A DNA stretch of 39,415 nt, taken from IMG/VR virus record IMGVR_UViG_3300025671_000171, positions 1 to 39,415 of that record; one strand, 5' to 3'. Both the position numbers and the translations under genes were made by a program. This DNA comes from a virus. The notes beneath the pieces were generated by a model. That model was not told where the DNA came from. It worked only from the letters and a program-made list of their open reading frames with translations, and made no database searches. This document shows positions 14,228-39,334 of this stretch, piece after piece. Each line of letters starts with the position of its first letter. The stretch's first letter is position 1.

Positions 14228-14388
14228 TGAGTGATTTTATATTTGGTAGTCTTACTATTATGCCCCTGGCTGGTATACTTACAGGTAACAACACCCCTCC
14301 CGCTACCCATAGAACAGCGCCCTGCGAGGGGTTACTCATTTTTGTGGTTGTGAAAATTGCATTAAATAACGGTAAATGTTATTATTAG
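14227..14388 (+). CDS. Small hypothetical protein ahead of array 1 (53 aa)
   Basis: The ATG overlaps the YopX stop (TGATG). The product is hydrophobic with a Pro/Thr-rich centre (TGNNTPPATHRTAPC). It contains a terminator-like inverted repeat in its coding region, and its stop lies one base before the first pentanucleotide array. It could instead be only a leader reading frame; codon bias gives no clear answer. Confidence 0.4.
   Translation: MSDFIFGSLTIMPLAGILTGNNTPPATHRTAPCEGLLIFVVVKIALNNGKCYY
14293..14347 (+). terminator. Possible terminator just before array 1
   Basis: ACCCCTC (14293-14299) and GAGGGGT (14336-14342) are perfect 7-bp arms with a long 36-base loop, followed within a few bases by a T5 run. 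The long loop lowers confidence. Confidence 0.4.
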
Positions 14389-14389
14389 C

Positions 14390-14514
14390 GCAAGGCAAAG
14401 CAGAGCATAGCAGAGCATAGCAATGCATCGCATAGCACCGCAATGCATCGCAAAGCAGCGCAAGGCAAAGCAGGGCATCGCAGTGCATCGCAATGCAGGG
14501 TATCGCACCGCAAA
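14390..14514 (+). repeat. Pentanucleotide array 1: (GCANN)25
   Basis: Twenty-five consecutive 5-base units in perfect phase. GCA is fixed in 24 of 25 (unit at 14500 is GTATC). The last two bases vary; in order they are AG AA GA TA GA TA AT TC TA CC AT TC AA GC AG AA GG TC GT TC AT GG TC CC AA. It starts one base after a stop codon, has no spacer and no insertion or deletion, and lies in the 5' leader of the 194-aa gene. It is not a CRISPR array. Confidence 0.97.
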
Positions 14515-14519
14515 GAACT

Positions 14520-14538
14520 CATTAACTAATTGTTAATG
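14520..14538 (+). promoter_or_regulatory. Inverted repeat between array 1 and the 194-aa gene
   Basis: CATTAAC (520-526) and GTTAATG (532-538) are perfect 7-bp arms around TAATT, followed by TTTTAT. This could be an operator or an AT-rich attenuator hairpin. Confidence 0.5.
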
Positions 14539-14569
14539 TTTTATAAATTAAACACAAGGATATATCGAT

Positions 14570-15154
14570 ATGATTAGGACAGCAACGCTAAACTATAGCG
14601 GTTTAAACTCACTTCTATTAAACAACCCGCAGACCGTAGACAGCCTCAATAAATACTCTAAAGCTTTGGCAGTAATTAACAAAAAGCGACTTAAGACCGA
14701 AGAAGATATCAATCACAGATACGAACTAGAAGTGTCTGCTAAGGTTTATTGGAGTGATGAGCTAGGCATTCAAATCCCAACGAGTTGGATTGTTGCGAGC
14801 GTTGCAAAAGTTTCACACAAGGTTTCAAAAATTGCTAAAGCCGACATTAGAGCGTCGTTTTTCCCTTCAGACGAGTATGTTAAGCTTAAATATGAAGGGG
14901 AATCTAGCATTAAGAAGAAAGATGATATTGTGCTGAACGAGTCTTATAGATGGCTATTTCCCACAAAACAAGGGCAAGTCAAGGTTATGAAAGCGTTCCC
15001 GATATTTAGGGATTGGAGCTTCTCAGTTGATGTTGAGTATGATGATTCTATATTGCCAGAAGAAGAGCTGTACAGAATAGCGGCTCACGGCGCAAAATAT
15101 AACGGTTTTGGAGACTTTCGGCCAACATTCGGAAGAGCGATATTATCTGTTTAA
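14570..15154 (+). CDS. Array-flanked protein of unknown function (194 aa)
   Basis: ATG 14570 is preceded by AAGGAT. The protein begins MIRTATLNYSGLNSLLLNNP and has an alternating beta/alpha character with a basic middle (SKIAKADIRASFF). It ends in YNGFGDFRPTFGRAILSV (177-194). The glycine/arginine loop G179-F-G181-DFRPTF-G188-R189 loosely resembles the C-terminal glycine-rich loop of RAMP/Cas6-type RNA-binding proteins; this is a motif resemblance only. I know no named family. The gene is bracketed by GCANN arrays on the same strand: array 1 ends 55 bases before it, array 2 begins 6 bases after its stop. The neighbours (YopX-like, NinB-like, NinG-like) place it in the middle, DNA-metabolism region. 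Confidence 0.8.
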   Translation: MIRTATLNYSGLNSLLLNNPQTVDSLNKYSKALAVINKKRLKTEEDINHRYELEVSAKVYWSDELGIQIPTSWIVASVAKVSHKVSKIAKADIRASFFPSDEYVKLKYEGESSIKKKDDIVLNESYRWLFPTKQGQVKVMKAFPIFRDWSFSVDVEYDDSILPEEELYRIAAHGAKYNGFGDFRPTFGRAILSV

Positions 15155-15160
15155 TTCAAT

Positions 15161-15280
15161 GCACAGCAGCGCAAAGCAACGCAAAGCAAAGCACAGCAGC
15201 GCACAGCAACGCAGAGCAAGGCAGAGCAAGACAAGGCATAGCAGAGCAAAGCACAGCAATGCACAGCAGCGCAAAGCAAC
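15161..15280 (+). repeat. Pentanucleotide array 2: (GCANN)24
   Basis: Twenty-four units in perfect 5-base phase; 23 begin GCA (unit at 15231 is ACAAG). The free dinucleotides are CA GC AA AC AA AA CA GC CA AC GA AG GA AG AG TA GA AA CA AT CA GC AA AC. The 20 bases at 15161-15180 recur exactly at 15261-15280. Only two T occur in 120 bases, so the + strand transcript would be almost U-free and poorly structured. A degenerate unit (tcaat) precedes it. It is the immediate 3' flank of the 194-aa gene. Confidence 0.97.
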
Positions 15281-15309
15281 GACCATTTAACAAATTAAGA
15301 GGGAACACA

Positions 15310-15726
15310 ATGAAAGAGATAATAGAACAGCTAGATAAGATGGGGCTTATTAAATATGGCTCTGTTATTACAGGAGAGCTTATTAGGGGCATGGCAGGAA
15401 TAGAGCTACCAGAAACGGGAACTAGAGATCAATTCAAAGACGCGGCACTAAAGGAACTAACGATAACGGATTACATTAGAGGTAAGTTGATATCTAAGGG
15501 CATGTATTTACATGCAACCAAGGGCGATTATAGAATTCTATCTCCATCCGAGAATAAGGATCAGGTGCTAGCATATATGAAGAGCGCCGATGGTAAGCTA
15601 AAGAGAGGGATTCGGTTATACGATAACACACCAAAACAATACCTAGACAACAACATTAAGACCAGGATTCACTTGCGGCAAGATTCAATCAATGAACAGA
15701 AGAGGCGACGAGATAACCTTAACTAA
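15310..15726 (+). CDS. Hypothetical protein (138 aa)
   Basis: The start is ATG 15310 (MKEIIEQLDKMG) behind AGAGGG; an earlier in-frame start at 15259 would lie inside array 2 and has no site. The N-terminal half looks helical with a possible winged-helix (GMAGIELPETGTRDQFKDAAL, LTITDYIRGKLISKG, GDYRIL), and the C-terminal end is basic (EQKRRRDNLN). It may be a DNA-binding protein of the nin-type region. No family named. Confidence 0.6.
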   Translation: MKEIIEQLDKMGLIKYGSVITGELIRGMAGIELPETGTRDQFKDAALKELTITDYIRGKLISKGMYLHATKGDYRILSPSENKDQVLAYMKSADGKLKRGIRLYDNTPKQYLDNNIKTRIHLRQDSINEQKRRRDNLN

Positions 15727-19716: not shown

Positions 19717-20402
19717 TGGCTGGATTGGGGTTCGCAGGTTTACCGTTAGGTGATTCAGTTGCATTAGGCTCTATTGAAGCGGCAGCAGGCGGAGCAACAA
19801 CATACACCAAAACAACAAGCCTAGACGCTCTACTACAGAAGCAGAACAACCTCAAAACTACATCAATTGACGCCCTGATACAAAAGACCACAACGCTACA
19901 AGCAAGCCTAGATGCTGTACTACAAAACAGCACAACTAAAACTACAAGTCTAGATGCATTAGTCCAAAAACAGAATAACCTAAAGACAACAAGCCTAGAT
20001 GCATTAGTACAGAGGACTTACACACTATTAACAAGTTTGGACGCCATAATAACGGATGGCGTTACAAAGGTATTGACTACATCATTAGATAGTTTAGTCC
20101 AGAAAACCTACACGCAAACGACCAGTCTGGACGCATTAATTCAAGATGCATTCACGATAGCAACAACAGTAGATGCATTAATACAAAAGACATACACGAA
20201 AACGACCAGTATAGATTCAGTATTAGGCAAGCAATACGTATTGACAGCAGCTATTGATAGCTTGATACGAAAGAACAATATAACCCTAACAACCTCTCTA
20301 GACGCTTATATAAGTGATGGTGAGATATGGGTTGTACAAACTAACAATGCTTCAACATGGTCTGCTCAAACTAACAACTCATCAACTTGGACGGTACAAT
20401 AA
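19716..20402 (+). CDS. Tandem-repeat structural protein (228 aa)
   Basis: After a Gly/Ala start, residues about 25-205 are twelve repeats of 13-15 residues built on TTSLDALxQK plus a short spacer (variants TTSIDALIQK, TTSLDSLVQK, TTVDALIQK). Hydrophobic residues recur at fixed positions, fitting a solenoid or trimeric fibre shaft. The end repeats TNNSSTW (NNASTWSAQTNNSSTW). The start ATG overlaps the previous stop (TGATG). Likely a fibre or appendage; receptor unknown. Confidence 0.65.
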   Translation: MAGLGFAGLPLGDSVALGSIEAAAGGATTYTKTTSLDALLQKQNNLKTTSIDALIQKTTTLQASLDAVLQNSTTKTTSLDALVQKQNNLKTTSLDALVQRTYTLLTSLDAIITDGVTKVLTTSLDSLVQKTYTQTTSLDALIQDAFTIATTVDALIQKTYTKTTSIDSVLGKQYVLTAAIDSLIRKNNITLTTSLDAYISDGEIWVVQTNNASTWSAQTNNSSTWTVQ

Positions 20403-20924: not shown

Positions 20925-21731
20925 TTGATAACATGGTTAGCAAGCTATCCAAAATCTGGAAATACGTATCTAAGACTATTGCTAAATGCTTATTTGTGTA
21001 ACGGCAATATAGATATAAATAATTTGGTTTTTGGTGGGGGTGATCATCGGAAGTATTACTATCAGGTAGTTAGCCCTCTTCCATTAACCAAACTCAACAG
21101 AGAAGATATTTTACTTCTTAGAAATGCCGCACTAATGAATATGGCAGTAGGATCGTTTCAGAAACCATGCCTAATTAAGACTCATAACATAAACGGCATA
21201 GCAAACGACATTAAGCTAATACCAAACAATCTAACAGAACAAGCCTTCTACATTGTTAGAGATCCTCGAAATGTTGTTGTGAGCTTCGCAAGGCATATGA
21301 AGCTGTCAATAGACGATTCTATAGATTGCATGAACGATAGATTGTATTCTATTAGCAACGATAATAGGTTCTTTCATGTTTTGGGTAACTGGTCTGAGAA
21401 CGTTTCTAGTTGGTTAAATGCTGAATTCAAAGTTAATCTAATCAAGTATGAACGGTTAGTATCTAATACGAGAGAAGTGCTAGAGAACGTACTGAAAGCA
21501 TTAGGAATAGACATTAACAACGAATTGTTAGATAATGCTATCAAAGCTACATCGCTGGACAAGTTGAGAGATCAAGAGAGCAAAGGTTTTGAGGAGAAGC
21601 CTAATAACGACTTTCAGTTTTTCAACGGTTCAACAGATTATGAAAAGGATCTGACTAGAGAGCAGATTAAACGGATTGAAGACGATCATTGGCAAGTTAT
21701 GGAGATGCTAGGATATGCAGCCACACGCTAA
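20925..21731 (+). CDS. Sulfotransferase-like protein (268 aa)
   Basis: The 5'-phosphosulphate loop is Y8-P-K-S-G-N-T14 (ITWLASYPKSGNTYLR) and the 3'-phosphate motif is at about 109-121 (YIVRDPRNVVVSF), both characteristic of PAPS-dependent sulfotransferases. The enzyme would move sulphate from PAPS to a hydroxyl of sugar, lipid or protein. The start is TTG 20925, required because the first motif begins at residue 3 and no ATG exists before residue about 65. It is an unusual cargo in a late operon. The target is unknown; sugars added by the glycosyltransferases at 29338-32102 are candidates. Confidence 0.8.
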   Translation: MITWLASYPKSGNTYLRLLLNAYLCNGNIDINNLVFGGGDHRKYYYQVVSPLPLTKLNREDILLLRNAALMNMAVGSFQKPCLIKTHNINGIANDIKLIPNNLTEQAFYIVRDPRNVVVSFARHMKLSIDDSIDCMNDRLYSISNDNRFFHVLGNWSENVSSWLNAEFKVNLIKYERLVSNTREVLENVLKALGIDINNELLDNAIKATSLDKLRDQESKGFEEKPNNDFQFFNGSTDYEKDLTREQIKRIEDDHWQVMEMLGYAATR

Positions 21732-29011: not shown

Positions 29012-29341
29012 ATGAGTAGGAAGCTTCTAGATTATGATCCATTAACAAGAACGGCTGAATGGCATTTTTACGATGAGATGTCGAAGAAAACCTATATCAA
29101 GACTGTACAGGATGTAGAGCCAATCTTGGAGACTAACAAGAGGAAGCAGAATTCTCTGAACACATCCCGTTTTACCAAAAAGGATGATATGTATCACTTT
29201 GCATCGGTTCCAAATTCTGTATTGTTGGAATGGAAGCAAAAATACAACATAGACTGGAACAGAAAAGAGGATCTACCAAAGATCGAGAAGCTGTTAATGT
29301 CTAGTGAATATAAATATCTAAGGACTGTTGATAGGATATGA
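29012..29341 (+). CDS. Conserved podoviral protein of unknown function (109 aa)
   Basis: The start is ATG 29012 (MSRKLLDYDPLTRTAEWHFY) behind GGTGG; the longer GTG frame adds 4 residues. The pattern DYDPLTRTAEWHFYDEM, QDVEPILETNKRKQN and HFASVPNSVLLEWKQKYNID is one I have seen in other podoviral structural regions. It is probably a small virion or assembly protein. The stop overlaps the next ATG. Confidence 0.6.
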   Translation: MSRKLLDYDPLTRTAEWHFYDEMSKKTYIKTVQDVEPILETNKRKQNSLNTSRFTKKDDMYHFASVPNSVLLEWKQKYNIDWNRKEDLPKIEKLLMSSEYKYLRTVDRI

Positions 29342-30714
29342 TTGAAGACCTAAAACGAGCTAAAGGAATAGTCGATTCAGAACCCGACGAGGCTATGAGA
29401 ATATGCTGCGAGGTGATGAACAAGGAGCTGGATTCGGATGTAGGCCAGATGGCGTTATTCATGGCTGGTTACATCATGATGAATGCAGGTAGAACAGGCA
29501 TTGCTTACCATATGTTTATGAGATGCGCTCAGTTAAAGCCTAATGAGCCTGAAATATACTCGAATATGGGTATGTGCTTGGAAGAGGATAAGCCAGAAGA
29601 GGCTGTTAAGCTGTTTAAGAAGGCTATGAAGCTGAAGCCTGGGAACGTTACAGCAATGGCTAATCTTGCTTTGATGAACCTCCAAATGGGAAGGCCGGAC
29701 GAATGCATAAACTTATGTAATCGAGTACTCAAAACTAATCCAGAATCGAGAGCAGCTCATCACAACAAAGGCTTAGCCAAGTTGATGAAACGAGACTTTA
29801 GCGGCTGGGATGAGTATTTTAAAACGTTAGGCGTTAAACATAGAGAGGCCAGATCTTACGGTTTGCCGGACTGGAACGGCGAAGAAGGAACGGTATTAGT
29901 CTATGGTGAGCAAGGTGTGGGTGATGAGATCATGTTCGCGTCATGCTTTGAAGACCTGCAAAAGACCAACAAGATCATATTTGACTGTGACAAAAGGCTT
30001 GAGTCAATATTCAAACGTAACTTTGATTTTGAGATTCATGGAACAAGATTCAGCGACAAGCCTATTGAGGTTTCAGAAACTCCAGACTACCAATGTGCTA
30101 TAGGTCAATTACCCTACTTCTTTAGAAGAAATGAATCAGACTTCCCTGGCAAGCCTTACCTCAAGCCAGATCCAGAACGAGCCATTCAATGGGAATCAAT
30201 ACTAGAAAGAGGTCCGAGAATTGGCATAGCTTGGAATGGCGGCACTAAGGGCACTAGACAACAATACAGATCTACAGATTTAGAGCAGTTTAAACCCATC
30301 ATAGATATGGACGCTCAGATAGTTAATCTCGAATATAAGCCTGTAGATGACGATCAGATGAAGGAATACGGTATCACGAATTGGCCTAGAGCTGTTCTAA
30401 AAGGCTGTGATCTAGAAGATACTTTAGCATTAATCAGTAGATTGGATTGTGTTGTTACAGTTTGTACTACTGTTGTCTATTTAGCGGGGGCTCTTGGGAT
30501 ACCCTGTTATGTTATAGTTCCTGAATATTGCGGTTATAGATATCATAGTTTTGGCTCATCATTTCCGTGGTATAATAGCGTGAAGCTGTATAGAGGTGGT
30601 TTTAACAAATCAATCAGGGAGATTAAAACGGATGTTGAAAATATTCATCGGATACGACCCACGCGAGACCGTAGCTTACCATGTACTCTGTCACTCAATA
30701 CTAAGGCAGGCTAG
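29338..30714 (+). CDS. TPR-containing glycosyltransferase-like protein (458 aa)
   Basis: The N-terminal 150 residues are TPR repeats (AGRTGIAYHMFMRCAQLKPN, NMGMCLEEDKPEEAVKLFKK, GRPDECINLCNRVLKTNP). From about 180 onward a Rossmann-like domain follows (GTVLVYGEQGVGDEIMFAS, IGIAWNGGTKGTRQQYRS, LISRLDCVVTVCTTVVYLAG), like GT9/GT-B-type glycosyltransferases with TPR modules. It would add sugars to a target recruited by the TPR. Placement in a late operon between capsid and tail genes suggests virion or host-surface glycosylation. Confidence 0.72.
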   Translation: MIEDLKRAKGIVDSEPDEAMRICCEVMNKELDSDVGQMALFMAGYIMMNAGRTGIAYHMFMRCAQLKPNEPEIYSNMGMCLEEDKPEEAVKLFKKAMKLKPGNVTAMANLALMNLQMGRPDECINLCNRVLKTNPESRAAHHNKGLAKLMKRDFSGWDEYFKTLGVKHREARSYGLPDWNGEEGTVLVYGEQGVGDEIMFASCFEDLQKTNKIIFDCDKRLESIFKRNFDFEIHGTRFSDKPIEVSETPDYQCAIGQLPYFFRRNESDFPGKPYLKPDPERAIQWESILERGPRIGIAWNGGTKGTRQQYRSTDLEQFKPIIDMDAQIVNLEYKPVDDDQMKEYGITNWPRAVLKGCDLEDTLALISRLDCVVTVCTTVVYLAGALGIPCYVIVPEYCGYRYHSFGSSFPWYNSVKLYRGGFNKSIREIKTDVENIHRIRPTRDRSLPCTLSLNTKAG

Positions 30715-31294
30715 CGGGCCAGTTAGTTTTACACCCATCAATAAGCGCAATATTCCAGAATTCACTAGAGGGATGGAAGATGGGTCTACAGAGTTCAGTT
30801 TTTCGCGGTTCCTCACTCCCTATCTAACAGGGTTCAGTGGCCAGGCATTATTTATGGATTGTGACATGCTTGTTAGATGCGATATCTACGAGCTACTAGC
30901 CTACGGTACAATCAGTAGTGCCGTTAGTGTTGTACAGCATGATTACACACCCAAACCAGATAAGAAATTCCTCGGCAATACCCAGCACATATACCCAAAA
31001 AAGAATTGGTCTAGCCTGATGTTGTTTAATTGCAGCCATACAGACTGTTTTAACCTTCATGCATACAAGATTAACCACTGTACAGGTAAATATTTACATC
31101 AATTTGAATGGGCGCAGGATGGAGTTGGAGCTATACCTCTAGACTACAATCATTTAGTGGGAGAATATGACCCCAATCCAGACGCTAAAATAGCCCATTT
31201 CACACTAGGTACGCCATGTTTCAAGGGATACGAGAGTCAAGAGTTTGCTGACGAATGGTTCGCTGAAAGGGAAATGATGCTACATGCAGACTAA
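30632..31294 (+). CDS. Glycosyltransferase, GT-A / GT8-like (220 aa)
   Basis: The start is ATG 30632 (MLKIFIGYDPRETVAYHVLC); the earlier 30596 frame overlaps upstream coding. The opening IFIGYDPRE and the metal motif D-C-D in QALFMDCDMLVRCDIYEL are those of GT8-like nucleotide-sugar transferases (DxD binds Mn2+). The tail has WAQDGVGAIPLDYNHLVGEY. It overlaps the preceding gene by 83 bases. Sugar and acceptor cannot be deduced. Confidence 0.75.
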   Translation: MLKIFIGYDPRETVAYHVLCHSILRQASGPVSFTPINKRNIPEFTRGMEDGSTEFSFSRFLTPYLTGFSGQALFMDCDMLVRCDIYELLAYGTISSAVSVVQHDYTPKPDKKFLGNTQHIYPKKNWSSLMLFNCSHTDCFNLHAYKINHCTGKYLHQFEWAQDGVGAIPLDYNHLVGEYDPNPDAKIAHFTLGTPCFKGYESQEFADEWFAEREMMLHAD

Positions 31295-32102
31295 TCCTAG
31301 CATTAACTTCTTTGGGCCAAATGAAGAGATAGCATCGGGAAGATACCGCAACATAATGCCGTTTAACTGGCTAAAGGATAATGGGTGGGAAGTAGGCAAC
31401 GATGTGCTAGTGACCATGAAGCATAGATGGCCATTCAACCCTTTAGAACCATACTCTAAATATATATTTGACGTATGCGACGATCATTTCGATACAATGT
31501 TTAGAGAGCATTATCTAAAACACTGTAACGAATCCAACCTTGTCACCTGCAATTCGGAAGAGATGTCTAGAATCATCAAGGAACGGACCGGAAGAGAGGC
31601 TCAAATAATACCTGATCCTATCGAATACGACACACAGCCAGCACACTATAAAGATAGATTCCTGACGTTTGGCAATGAGTGGAATATTGCATTGTTGCGC
31701 AATGTACCGAACCTATTAAAAGCCCTAAACGGTAGATCGTTAGATATTATTTCTAAGCCTGTAGAACCCTCAATTATTCCTTGGAGCCGTGAGGCAATGA
31801 TAGAAGGGTTTAAACGTGCTGGAGCTGTTATTATTCCAGTAGGTAATAAGATAGCTAAGAGCGCTAATCGGTTGTTGGAATCAATTAATGCGGGATGTTT
31901 TGTAATAGCTAACAGCATGCCAGCCTATGACGAATTCAAGGATTTTTCGTGGATTGGTGATATCGCTCAAGGTATAGACTGGTATTTAAACAACAAGGAA
32001 GAGGCTCTAATTAAGGTAGAAGCAGGTCAGAGGTATATACTCGACCGCTACACTATCGACAAGGTAGGGCCGATGTGGGAGAAAGCAATTGGGTCATGTT
32101 AA
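31284..32102 (+). CDS. Glycosyltransferase, GT-B / group 1-like (272 aa)
   Basis: Residues 1-60 include ASGRYRNIMPFNWLKDNGWE; the C-terminal half has the donor-site pattern NRLLESINAGCFVIANSMPA, as in GT4-type transferases, where EAMA-GCPVI-type residues bind the nucleotide sugar. The protein is short for GT-B (usually over 350), so one Rossmann lobe may be reduced. It overlaps both neighbours and belongs to the sugar cassette. Confidence 0.68.
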   Translation: MQTNPSINFFGPNEEIASGRYRNIMPFNWLKDNGWEVGNDVLVTMKHRWPFNPLEPYSKYIFDVCDDHFDTMFREHYLKHCNESNLVTCNSEEMSRIIKERTGREAQIIPDPIEYDTQPAHYKDRFLTFGNEWNIALLRNVPNLLKALNGRSLDIISKPVEPSIIPWSREAMIEGFKRAGAVIIPVGNKIAKSANRLLESINAGCFVIANSMPAYDEFKDFSWIGDIAQGIDWYLNNKEEALIKVEAGQRYILDRYTIDKVGPMWEKAIGSC

Positions 32103-32673
32103 TCAGAGGATCTTTTTAGAACGGATGGGAGGCCAGCTACACGGGCCTGTATTAGAGGTTGGCAGCAAAGACTACGGAAACACACAGGACTTTAGATCTT
32201 TAGTCAGCGGTGAATACGTTGGTTTAGATTTGGAGGACGGTAAAGGCGTTGACGTAGTACATGATCTATCAGACGGAGTTGGACCACTCAAAAAAGGCCA
32301 TTTTAATCTGATTATATGCTGTTCGATCTTAGAGCATGTAAAGAACCCCTGGATAGTTGCTGAAACATTAATGGATCTACTGAGCGATAACGGAAAGATC
32401 TACATTTCTACTCCGTGGATTCAACGTTACCATAAATATCCAGACGATTATTGGCGGTTCACTCTTCCAGCGCTTAAACTGTTATTTAATAGATTAGAGT
32501 TAACCAAGCCATATCTAAGCACCTTCACAGCTGGCGAGTTCATGGATCTTGAAACATATCCAGACTGCGACAACTCACTTGCAATAATGCACGATGGCAG
32601 AAAGTACCTACCTTGCTACGAATTACACACTATTGGGCTGAATAATGGCAATAAACACATACGCGAACCTTAA
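32089..32673 (+). CDS. SAM-dependent methyltransferase (194 aa)
   Basis: A class I methyltransferase fold is indicated by motif I VLEVGSKDYG, GLDLEDGKGVDVVHDL (acidic end of strand 2), and LIICCSILEHVKNPW then YISTPWIQRYHKYPDDYW. The start is TTG 32089 with GGGAG eight bases ahead; ATG 32125 would cut into the region before motif I. It is likely to methylate a sugar or lipid in the same cassette. It overlaps the glycosyltransferase end. Confidence 0.78.
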   Translation: MGHVNQRIFLERMGGQLHGPVLEVGSKDYGNTQDFRSLVSGEYVGLDLEDGKGVDVVHDLSDGVGPLKKGHFNLIICCSILEHVKNPWIVAETLMDLLSDNGKIYISTPWIQRYHKYPDDYWRFTLPALKLLFNRLELTKPYLSTFTAGEFMDLETYPDCDNSLAIMHDGRKYLPCYELHTIGLNNGNKHIREP

Positions 32674-38350: not shown

Positions 38351-39334
38351 ATGACAAACCTATTCAATGAGTTCATTAAAGGCCAACAAGCAGCGCAGAA
38401 TTTTCAACTCAATAAAATGAGACTTGCTCAGGCTAATGCACTATTCCCAGCTGAACAGCAGATAAAACAACTAGAGATAGAGAGATTGCAGCAAGCATTG
38501 GCTACTGGAAAACAAGCAGAATTTCAGCAGGCACAGCAGAAAGAGCTAGCGGGCTACACGTTCAACCCTGCAACTGGTCAATACTCTATTAATCCAGCTC
38601 TGAAACAACAAATAGAAGCAACAAAGGCTCTCGCAGCTAAACCAGAATTAAAGGTAAGTGATATATCCTCTATTAACAAGGATCTGACAGCGTTAACTAA
38701 GGATGCCAGAGGTATTAAAGCGGCTGCTGATAGCTTGATAAGCCTTAAAGAGAGTTCAAGCCCAGCTTCAAAACTTGCAGCTGTGTTTAAGTTTATGAAA
38801 GCGTTAGATCCAACCTCTGTAGTAAGAGAAACAGAACAAGGTCAGGTTTATGAGTCTCAAGGCATACCAGAACTATTATTAGGCAAGCTAAATAATATAA
38901 CCGGAGAAGGCAAGCTTACTGGTCAGGCGTTCCAAGACCTCGTAGATACCTCAAAAATAATGGCTAACTCAGCCCTAGAGACCTCTAGAGAAGAGGCTAT
39001 AAGCTTTTTAGATGTATTCTCAGAGCTTCCAGATGACAGACGAGCAGCTTTTGAAAAGAGGGTTCCAACACTGTTCGACGTTTCCAATATTAAACCGATT
39101 AAACCAGATCAACCTGCAATGGTAAATATTGGGAGTGGGCGCAATAAGCGAATAGTGCCTGCGGATGCTATTCCGGTTACAGAGCTTACTAATGAGCAGC
39201 TAATGCAAGAATACGAACGATTGCGAGGGAGTGGGCGCAATAAGCGAATAGTGCCTGCGGATGCTATTCCGGTTACAGAGCTTACTAATGAGCAGCTAAT
39301 GCAAGAATACGAACGATTGCGAGGTGGTCAATAA
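38351..39334 (+). CDS. DNA ejection protein, gp20-like (327 aa as drawn)
   Basis: GGGGGG precedes the ATG. The N-terminus is long, Gln-rich and helical (MTNLFNEFIKGQQAAQNF, AEQQIKQLEIERLQQALA). The middle is helical and charged. The C-terminus carries a 32-residue tandem duplication (GSGRNKRIVPADAIPVTELT ...) at about 260-325. If the duplication is an artefact the true protein is 295 aa. It sits between the gp7-like and the large ejection gene; the three probably form one ejection set. Confidence 0.65.
   Translation: MTNLFNEFIKGQQAAQNFQLNKMRLAQANALFPAEQQIKQLEIERLQQALATGKQAEFQQAQQKELAGYTFNPATGQYSINPALKQQIEATKALAAKPELKVSDISSINKDLTALTKDARGIKAAADSLISLKESSSPASKLAAVFKFMKALDPTSVVRETEQGQVYESQGIPELLLGKLNNITGEGKLTGQAFQDLVDTSKIMANSALETSREEAISFLDVFSELPDDRRAAFEKRVPTLFDVSNIKPIKPDQPAMVNIGSGRNKRIVPADAIPVTELTNEQLMQEYERLRGSGRNKRIVPADAIPVTELTNEQLMQEYERLRGGQ
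39131..39324 (+). repeat. 96-bp tandem duplication at the contig edge
   Basis: The unit at 39131-39226 recurs at once at 39227-39322, identical over 98 bases with no differences. It adds exactly 32 codons, so the frame is kept. Perfect identity beside the assembly join suggests a very recent event or an assembly error. Confidence 0.9.

Follow-up and report, generated by a model that had tools for sequence, protein, structure and literature searches.

The closest described relatives of the locus analysed here are VIPR (Viral Interference Programmable Repeat) systems, phage systems of RNA-guided DNA recognition that were first described in 2026 and proposed as a forerunner of CRISPR, as set out in a preprint (bioRxiv 2026.04.26.720920; PMC13142463). 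They combine a vap gene and the RAMP protein Vipr with vrRNAs made of 9-16 YNNGG repeats and a 3' tail, with the motif worded as 'GGY/NN motifs, or a related consensus' (PMC13142463). According to the same text, the NN bases pair with double-stranded DNA at a 1-nt skip that falls mostly on codon wobble positions, and the ribonucleoprotein (RNP) represses competing phages and satellites (PMC13142463). The Vipr of Escherichia phage SUSP1 forms an RNP with 5-nt tandem-repeat RNAs, and the preprint reports RNP formation for SUSP1 and P. fulva VIPR, and DNA binding and repression for SUSP1 (PMC13142463).

Here we consider a stretch of 39,415 nucleotides (the window) from IMG/VR virus record IMGVR_UViG_3300025671_000171, in which two arrays of phased GCANN units flank the gene of a 194-aa protein. 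A 5-nt period is also a property of the sites of TRAP, which binds (G/U)AGNN RNA such that each subunit reads a fixed triplet and two spacer bases, the spacer bases holding no targeting information. We consider it highly probable that the window contains a VIPR locus resembling that of SUSP1 (type II), built on GCA/NN, and that its arrays are guide RNAs for DNA targeting, because the 194-aa protein is homologous to Vipr, the arrays are SUSP1-like and the accessory gene is related to a SUSP1 gene.

Two arrays and their neighbouring genes

The locus runs from a promoter-like site through array 1, a hairpin, vipr and array 2 to a vap-like gene, with the following features:

14357..14385, + strand: promoter-like site, TTGCAT, 17-base spacer, TATTAT (read directly)
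14390..14514, + strand: array 1, 25 GCANN units predicted to form the repeat tract of a guide RNA (vrRNA)
14515..14544, + strand: 3' tail of array 1, GAACT, hairpin CATTAAC-TAATT-GTTAATG, then TTTTAT
14570..15154, + strand: vipr, 194-aa protein of predicted RAMP (Cas7-like) type, PHROG 4652
15161..15280, + strand: array 2, 24 GCANN units between vipr and vap, second predicted guide RNA
15281..15303, + strand: stretch downstream of array 2, with a weak hairpin followed by the vap ribosome-binding site (AGAGGG)
15310..15726, + strand: accessory gene of vap type, 138 aa, distantly related to the gene next to vipr in SUSP1

The sequence-only reading had described 25 and 24 phased units with GCA kept in 47 of 49 and no indel, and unit counts and shuffles bear it out: a pattern of five phased GCA units has 33 matches in the window as opposed to none in 100 dinucleotide-preserving shuffles, and the phase is unbroken in both arrays. 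The fixed bases are G 25/25, C 24/25 and A 25/25 in array 1, and G 23/24, C 24/24 and A 24/24 in array 2. All four letters occur at the fourth and fifth bases, and NN is near saturation in these arrays while GCA is exact in 47/49 units. Outside both arrays, the window held no fixed-triplet run of at least five units at steps 4 to 12. Array 2 begins 6 bases past the stop of the 194-aa gene (15154), as had been noted; the stop codon seen 1 base before array 1 is indeed present (TAG, 14386-14388), but it closes merely a 53-codon ORF, the upstream part of which is absent from relatives. The opening four units of array 2 equal its closing four exactly (GCACAGCAGCGCAAAGCAAC, 15161-15180 and 15261-15280), a 20-base duplication hinting that arrays may grow by internal duplication.

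The 194-aa protein falls into PHROG 4652, which PHROGs annotates as unknown function only. Its sole PDB sequence match was 36pp, 'SUSP1 Vipr protein' (E=1e-15), and a family profile again found only this entry (E=3.5e-33); identity to SUSP1 Vipr is 26-27% over 86% of the query. An AlphaFold2 model (pLDDT 91.6) was compared with known structures by Foldseek, and all 50 matches listed were CRISPR effector-complex structures of types III or VII, 37 of those listed at E<=0.001; Csm3/Cas7-family subunits were matched with E from 5.7e-5, probability about 1, TM about 0.5 and 10-16% identity. By homology, then, the 194-aa protein is a Vipr, a minimal RAMP homologue, with a predicted RNA-binding RAMP fold and a Gly-rich stretch close to its C-terminus. 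A TRAP-like identity had also been considered and was dropped after the 36pp match and the RAMP-fold Foldseek matches. The 138-aa protein encoded downstream aligned with the product of the SUSP1 gene beside vipr in hhalign (Prob 89.8, E=1.8e-6); its AlphaFold2 model (pLDDT 90.0) had no significant match among PDB folds.

Ahead of array 1, the promoter-like site has a TGT before TATTAT, forming an extended -10, and its predicted start lies inside the first GCA unit. A generic promoter/terminator scan of the window gave no excess over shuffles and did not list this site, so the array 1 promoter is our inference; its sequence is identical in two close relatives, L112 and L113, and this conservation argues that it may well be real. 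The 7-bp hairpin in the tail of array 1 is modest (-5.6 kcal/mol, z -1.55). For array 2, promoter/terminator scanning and folding found no clear promoter or structured tail, and this array probably rides on a vipr-vap transcript. An Rfam search of the window and five loci matched no known RNA family.

As for the wider context, the window's genes include a DnaB-like helicase, NinB, NinG, antitermination Q, terminase, portal and an SU10-type capsid, and the DNA matches of the structural genes are weak, most of them being to phages of Pelagibacter and Vibrio. Several other features of the window caught our attention. The gene of a 229-aa protein contains 42-45-base repeats (19898-20216) encoding TTSLDALVQK-like peptide repeats. 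The protein encoded at 20925-21731, with N-terminal MITWLASYPKSGNTYLRLLLNAYL, resembles sulfotransferases by eye, and genes at 29338-32673, which look TPR-, glycosyltransferase- and methyltransferase-like by eye, might constitute a glycan-modification block in the phage. Finally, an exact 96-base tandem duplication (39131-39324, 100% identical) within the last gene, at the record end, is either a duplication of very recent date or an artefact of the assembly end.

Turnover of the arrays and codon phase of the free bases

The relatives L112 and L113 have near-identical flanks and Viprs 97% identical to that of the window. Their first arrays hold 13 and 16 units against 25 in the window, and the NN of these arrays differ from the window's everywhere but close to the 3' end; the second array counts 18 units in L112 against 24, while in L113 it ends at the contig edge. 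The 5-base phase is retained in both relatives. That unit count should change among close relatives while phase stays had been set beforehand as a test, and the counts of 13, 16 and 25 agree with it. Turnover of NN and of units at a kept phase is, judging from these sequences, the picture expected of a rapidly changing guide.

If NN pairs with coding DNA at a 1-nt skip, all the NN of an array should lie in one codon phase, whereas with skips of 0, 2 or 3 the codon phase would cycle along the array. We compared 108 non-redundant GCA arrays with codon-phase dinucleotide frequencies from genes of similar G+C. Over the whole set, skip 1 was ahead of skips 0/2/3 by 66-68 log units; it was best for 58 of the 108 arrays, with 27 and 23 falling to the other skips (0 and 3 being indistinguishable), and codon positions 1-2 were favoured (69, 32, 7). 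Arrays simulated from real genes with skip 1 and the wobble base skipped gave 60/25/23 and 72/22/14, while those simulated under other skips gave an order different from that observed. The signal was lost when N2 was shuffled within arrays (z 7.1), and reversed or cross-unit dinucleotides had no codon-position preference. The window's two arrays by themselves do not decide the skip rule in this test. What is new is that the codon-phase fit of NN in GCA arrays was obtained without any known target, and it supports the view that GCA guides as a group follow the 1-nt-skip rule of the published GGY guides.

These data bear on the best-surviving alternative, namely that Vipr coats GCANN RNA as a TRAP-like filament or sponge and so regulates its own mRNA, with NN as uninformative spacers. 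A 5-nt period with a fixed triplet would, taken alone, fit such coating, and array 2 does sit in the untranslated stretch ahead of vap. We nevertheless regard it as very improbable, given the codon-phase signal over the 108 arrays and its loss on shuffling, the fact that near-identical relatives differ almost only in NN, and the use of NN in DNA targeting by SUSP1 relatives, as reported in the preprint (PMC13142463). The two free bases, which had earlier been taken for filler, would thus carry guide information in the service of DNA targeting.

Searches for the targets themselves covered three kinds of material and yielded none for the window's arrays. Decoded arrays from all loci, searched against 1.24 Mb at skips 0-2, gave no excess over shuffles. 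Five seeds of 8 or 9 units, taken from the window's arrays and written with a 1-nt skip, had exact matches in 11, 16, 11, 10 and 1 stretches of IMG/VR; we attribute these matches to chance, since extension past the seed matched at most half of the bases and the genes look unrelated. A tblastn search of three decoded peptides of 24-25 aa against phages returned nothing credible.

Linkage of arrays and Vipr across loci

We surveyed the association between arrays and protein from both sides. In the array-first survey, IMG/VR was scanned for nine phased GCANN units, yielding 97 stretches of which about half were simple 5-mer microsatellites; the diverse arrays came from 39 other loci, which together with the window make 40. 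Profiles seeded with the 194-aa and 138-aa proteins found a Vipr homologue at 29/40 and an accessory homologue at 23/40 of them. In the protein-first survey, 56 Vipr loci were gathered without regard to arrays, and sense-strand arrays of at least 8 G[CA]ANN units were present at 43/56, with antisense arrays at 0/56; a homologue of the 138-aa protein occurs at 52/56, always on the vipr strand. The 13/56 relatives lacking an array of at least 8 units under this criterion are explained in part by looser triplets or a cut contig. At control steps of 4, 6, 7 and 8, arrays were found at 0, 2, 1 and 0 of 61 loci, and the same array finder detected the GGT/NN arrays of the SUSP1 genome. The control triplet ACG gave 21 stretches, 4 of them diverse, where GCA had given 97 and 36; distant Viprs are encoded at two of the ACG loci, and this control is therefore itself contaminated by VIPR.

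The tie between arrays and homologues of the 194-aa protein (29/40 by array, 43/56 by protein) had been anticipated by the sequence-only reading, which took the arrays as a track for a protein binding one subunit per 5 bases and named the 194-aa protein as the candidate. SUSP1 Vipr homology and linkage make this essentially right, one subunit per 5 bases being the predicted stoichiometry. Its other suggestions, an iteron, a packaging or recombination site, or a movable cassette, found no support.

A DNA-level element, that is, an iteron-like origin or a site for packaging or recombination whose double-stranded DNA the 194-aa protein binds, could draw on the DnaB-like helicase and recombination genes that adjoin the locus. 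We hold it to be even less probable than RNA coating, as the arrays are always in the sense orientation relative to vipr, loci often have several arrays with covarying RNA hairpins between them, and the protein has the predicted RNA-binding fold of RAMPs. The least credible alternative is a functionless, decayed microsatellite produced by slippage of a GCANN 5-mer and later mutation, for although the same IMG/VR scan met many simple 5-mer runs and array 2 has its internal 20-base duplication, mutation should strike GCA like NN, in conflict with the preserved triplets and near-saturated NN of the window, and the tie to a single protein family is strong whether one starts from the arrays or from the protein.

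The organisation of arrays and tails varies among relatives. One of them (L114) has three arrays, two of which precede strong terminator-like hairpins with T runs and the third a weaker hairpin; in some others, linkers of about 55-66 nt separate successive arrays. Over 18 tails, selected for a shared ACGCG-hairpin form and therefore describing that subset, 97.2% of cells are paired, double changes occur in 10/14 pairs, and covariation is 0.712 as compared to 0.188 in shuffled and at most 0.16 in slid versions. At four further loci (L018, L050, L083, L105), arrays follow one another at nearly even intervals (about 111 bases in L105), joined by linkers that are very short or form hairpins; these are multi-guide VIPR arrays.

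The fixed triplet, too, differs between Vipr relatives: most have GCA, and we also found GAA (L160), mixed GMA, GGT (SUSP1), GGC, CGA (L228) and ACG (L233). The CGA run (L228:7500-7620) and the ACG run (L233, reverse strand, around 2195) accompany distant Viprs and were chance finds of the control scan. Distant Vipr homologues also lie by low-NN-diversity runs (GCAAG/GCATG) in L071, L072 and L090, with GGC as the best triplet. In a quick tree, which has several long branches and whose deeper placements are unsure, the window falls within a 48-row group whose called triplets are GCA but for one GAA, with SUSP1 apart. This Vipr branch is carried by only 2 bacterial assemblies, both MAGs. We tentatively raise the possibility, leaning somewhat against it ourselves, that GCA/NN VIPRs form a branch of large size, viral for the most part, that has a code to itself. 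On this view Vipr lineages, reading different triplets (GCA, GAA, GGY, GGC, CGA), would be mutually orthogonal RNA-guided systems, and arrays of 20-27 units would read DNA targets of 60-80 bp by gapped pairing.

Proposed mechanism and comparison with known systems

Under our preferred reading of the window as a VIPR locus, a promoter of its own would drive an array 1 transcript terminated at the hairpin, while array 2 would be part of the vipr-vap transcript. Each array would yield a vrRNA along which Vipr subunits align, one per 5 nt, with the GCA triplets gripped by protein and left unpaired. The NN would then pair with DNA in the pattern NNxNNx..., the skipped base corresponding to the codon wobble position, and the RNP, aided by Vap, may repress genes of a competing phage or satellite in a shared host.

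The window offers a clear example of VIPR from a phage that has not been cultivated, in which guides, protein and accessory gene occur together, and its close relatives differ chiefly in guide content. The codon-phase test represents independent, target-free support for the published non-contiguous code in a branch whose triplet differs, and it would be applicable to other VIPR sets even where neither hosts nor targets are known. Furthermore, variation of the fixed triplet between Vipr lineages makes protein-RNA recognition testable through triplet swaps.

Turning to known systems, the backbone subunits of class 1 CRISPR effectors (Csm3/Cas7 RAMPs) share the predicted RAMP fold of the window's Vipr. 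On the other hand, the window has one small protein and 5-nt fixed-triplet units with no contiguous free spacer; a tandem-repeat scan of the window found no CRISPR repeat-spacer array, and no cas families were found among the subset of its proteins scanned. TRAP matches the arrays in period, whereas its fold is unrelated to the RAMP fold predicted for the window's protein. The SUSP1 VIPR (type II, 36pp) differs from the window in that array 1 of the window has a simple hairpin as its tail, and the published VIPR guides have GGY in place of GCA and 9-16 units as opposed to 24-25. In other respects SUSP1 is the nearest counterpart: both loci lie in phage genomes, both have homologous Viprs with a related gene adjoining, from which we infer a type II-like layout for the window by its vap, and in both, arrays of a triplet and NN at a 5-nt step run on the gene strand and flank genes.
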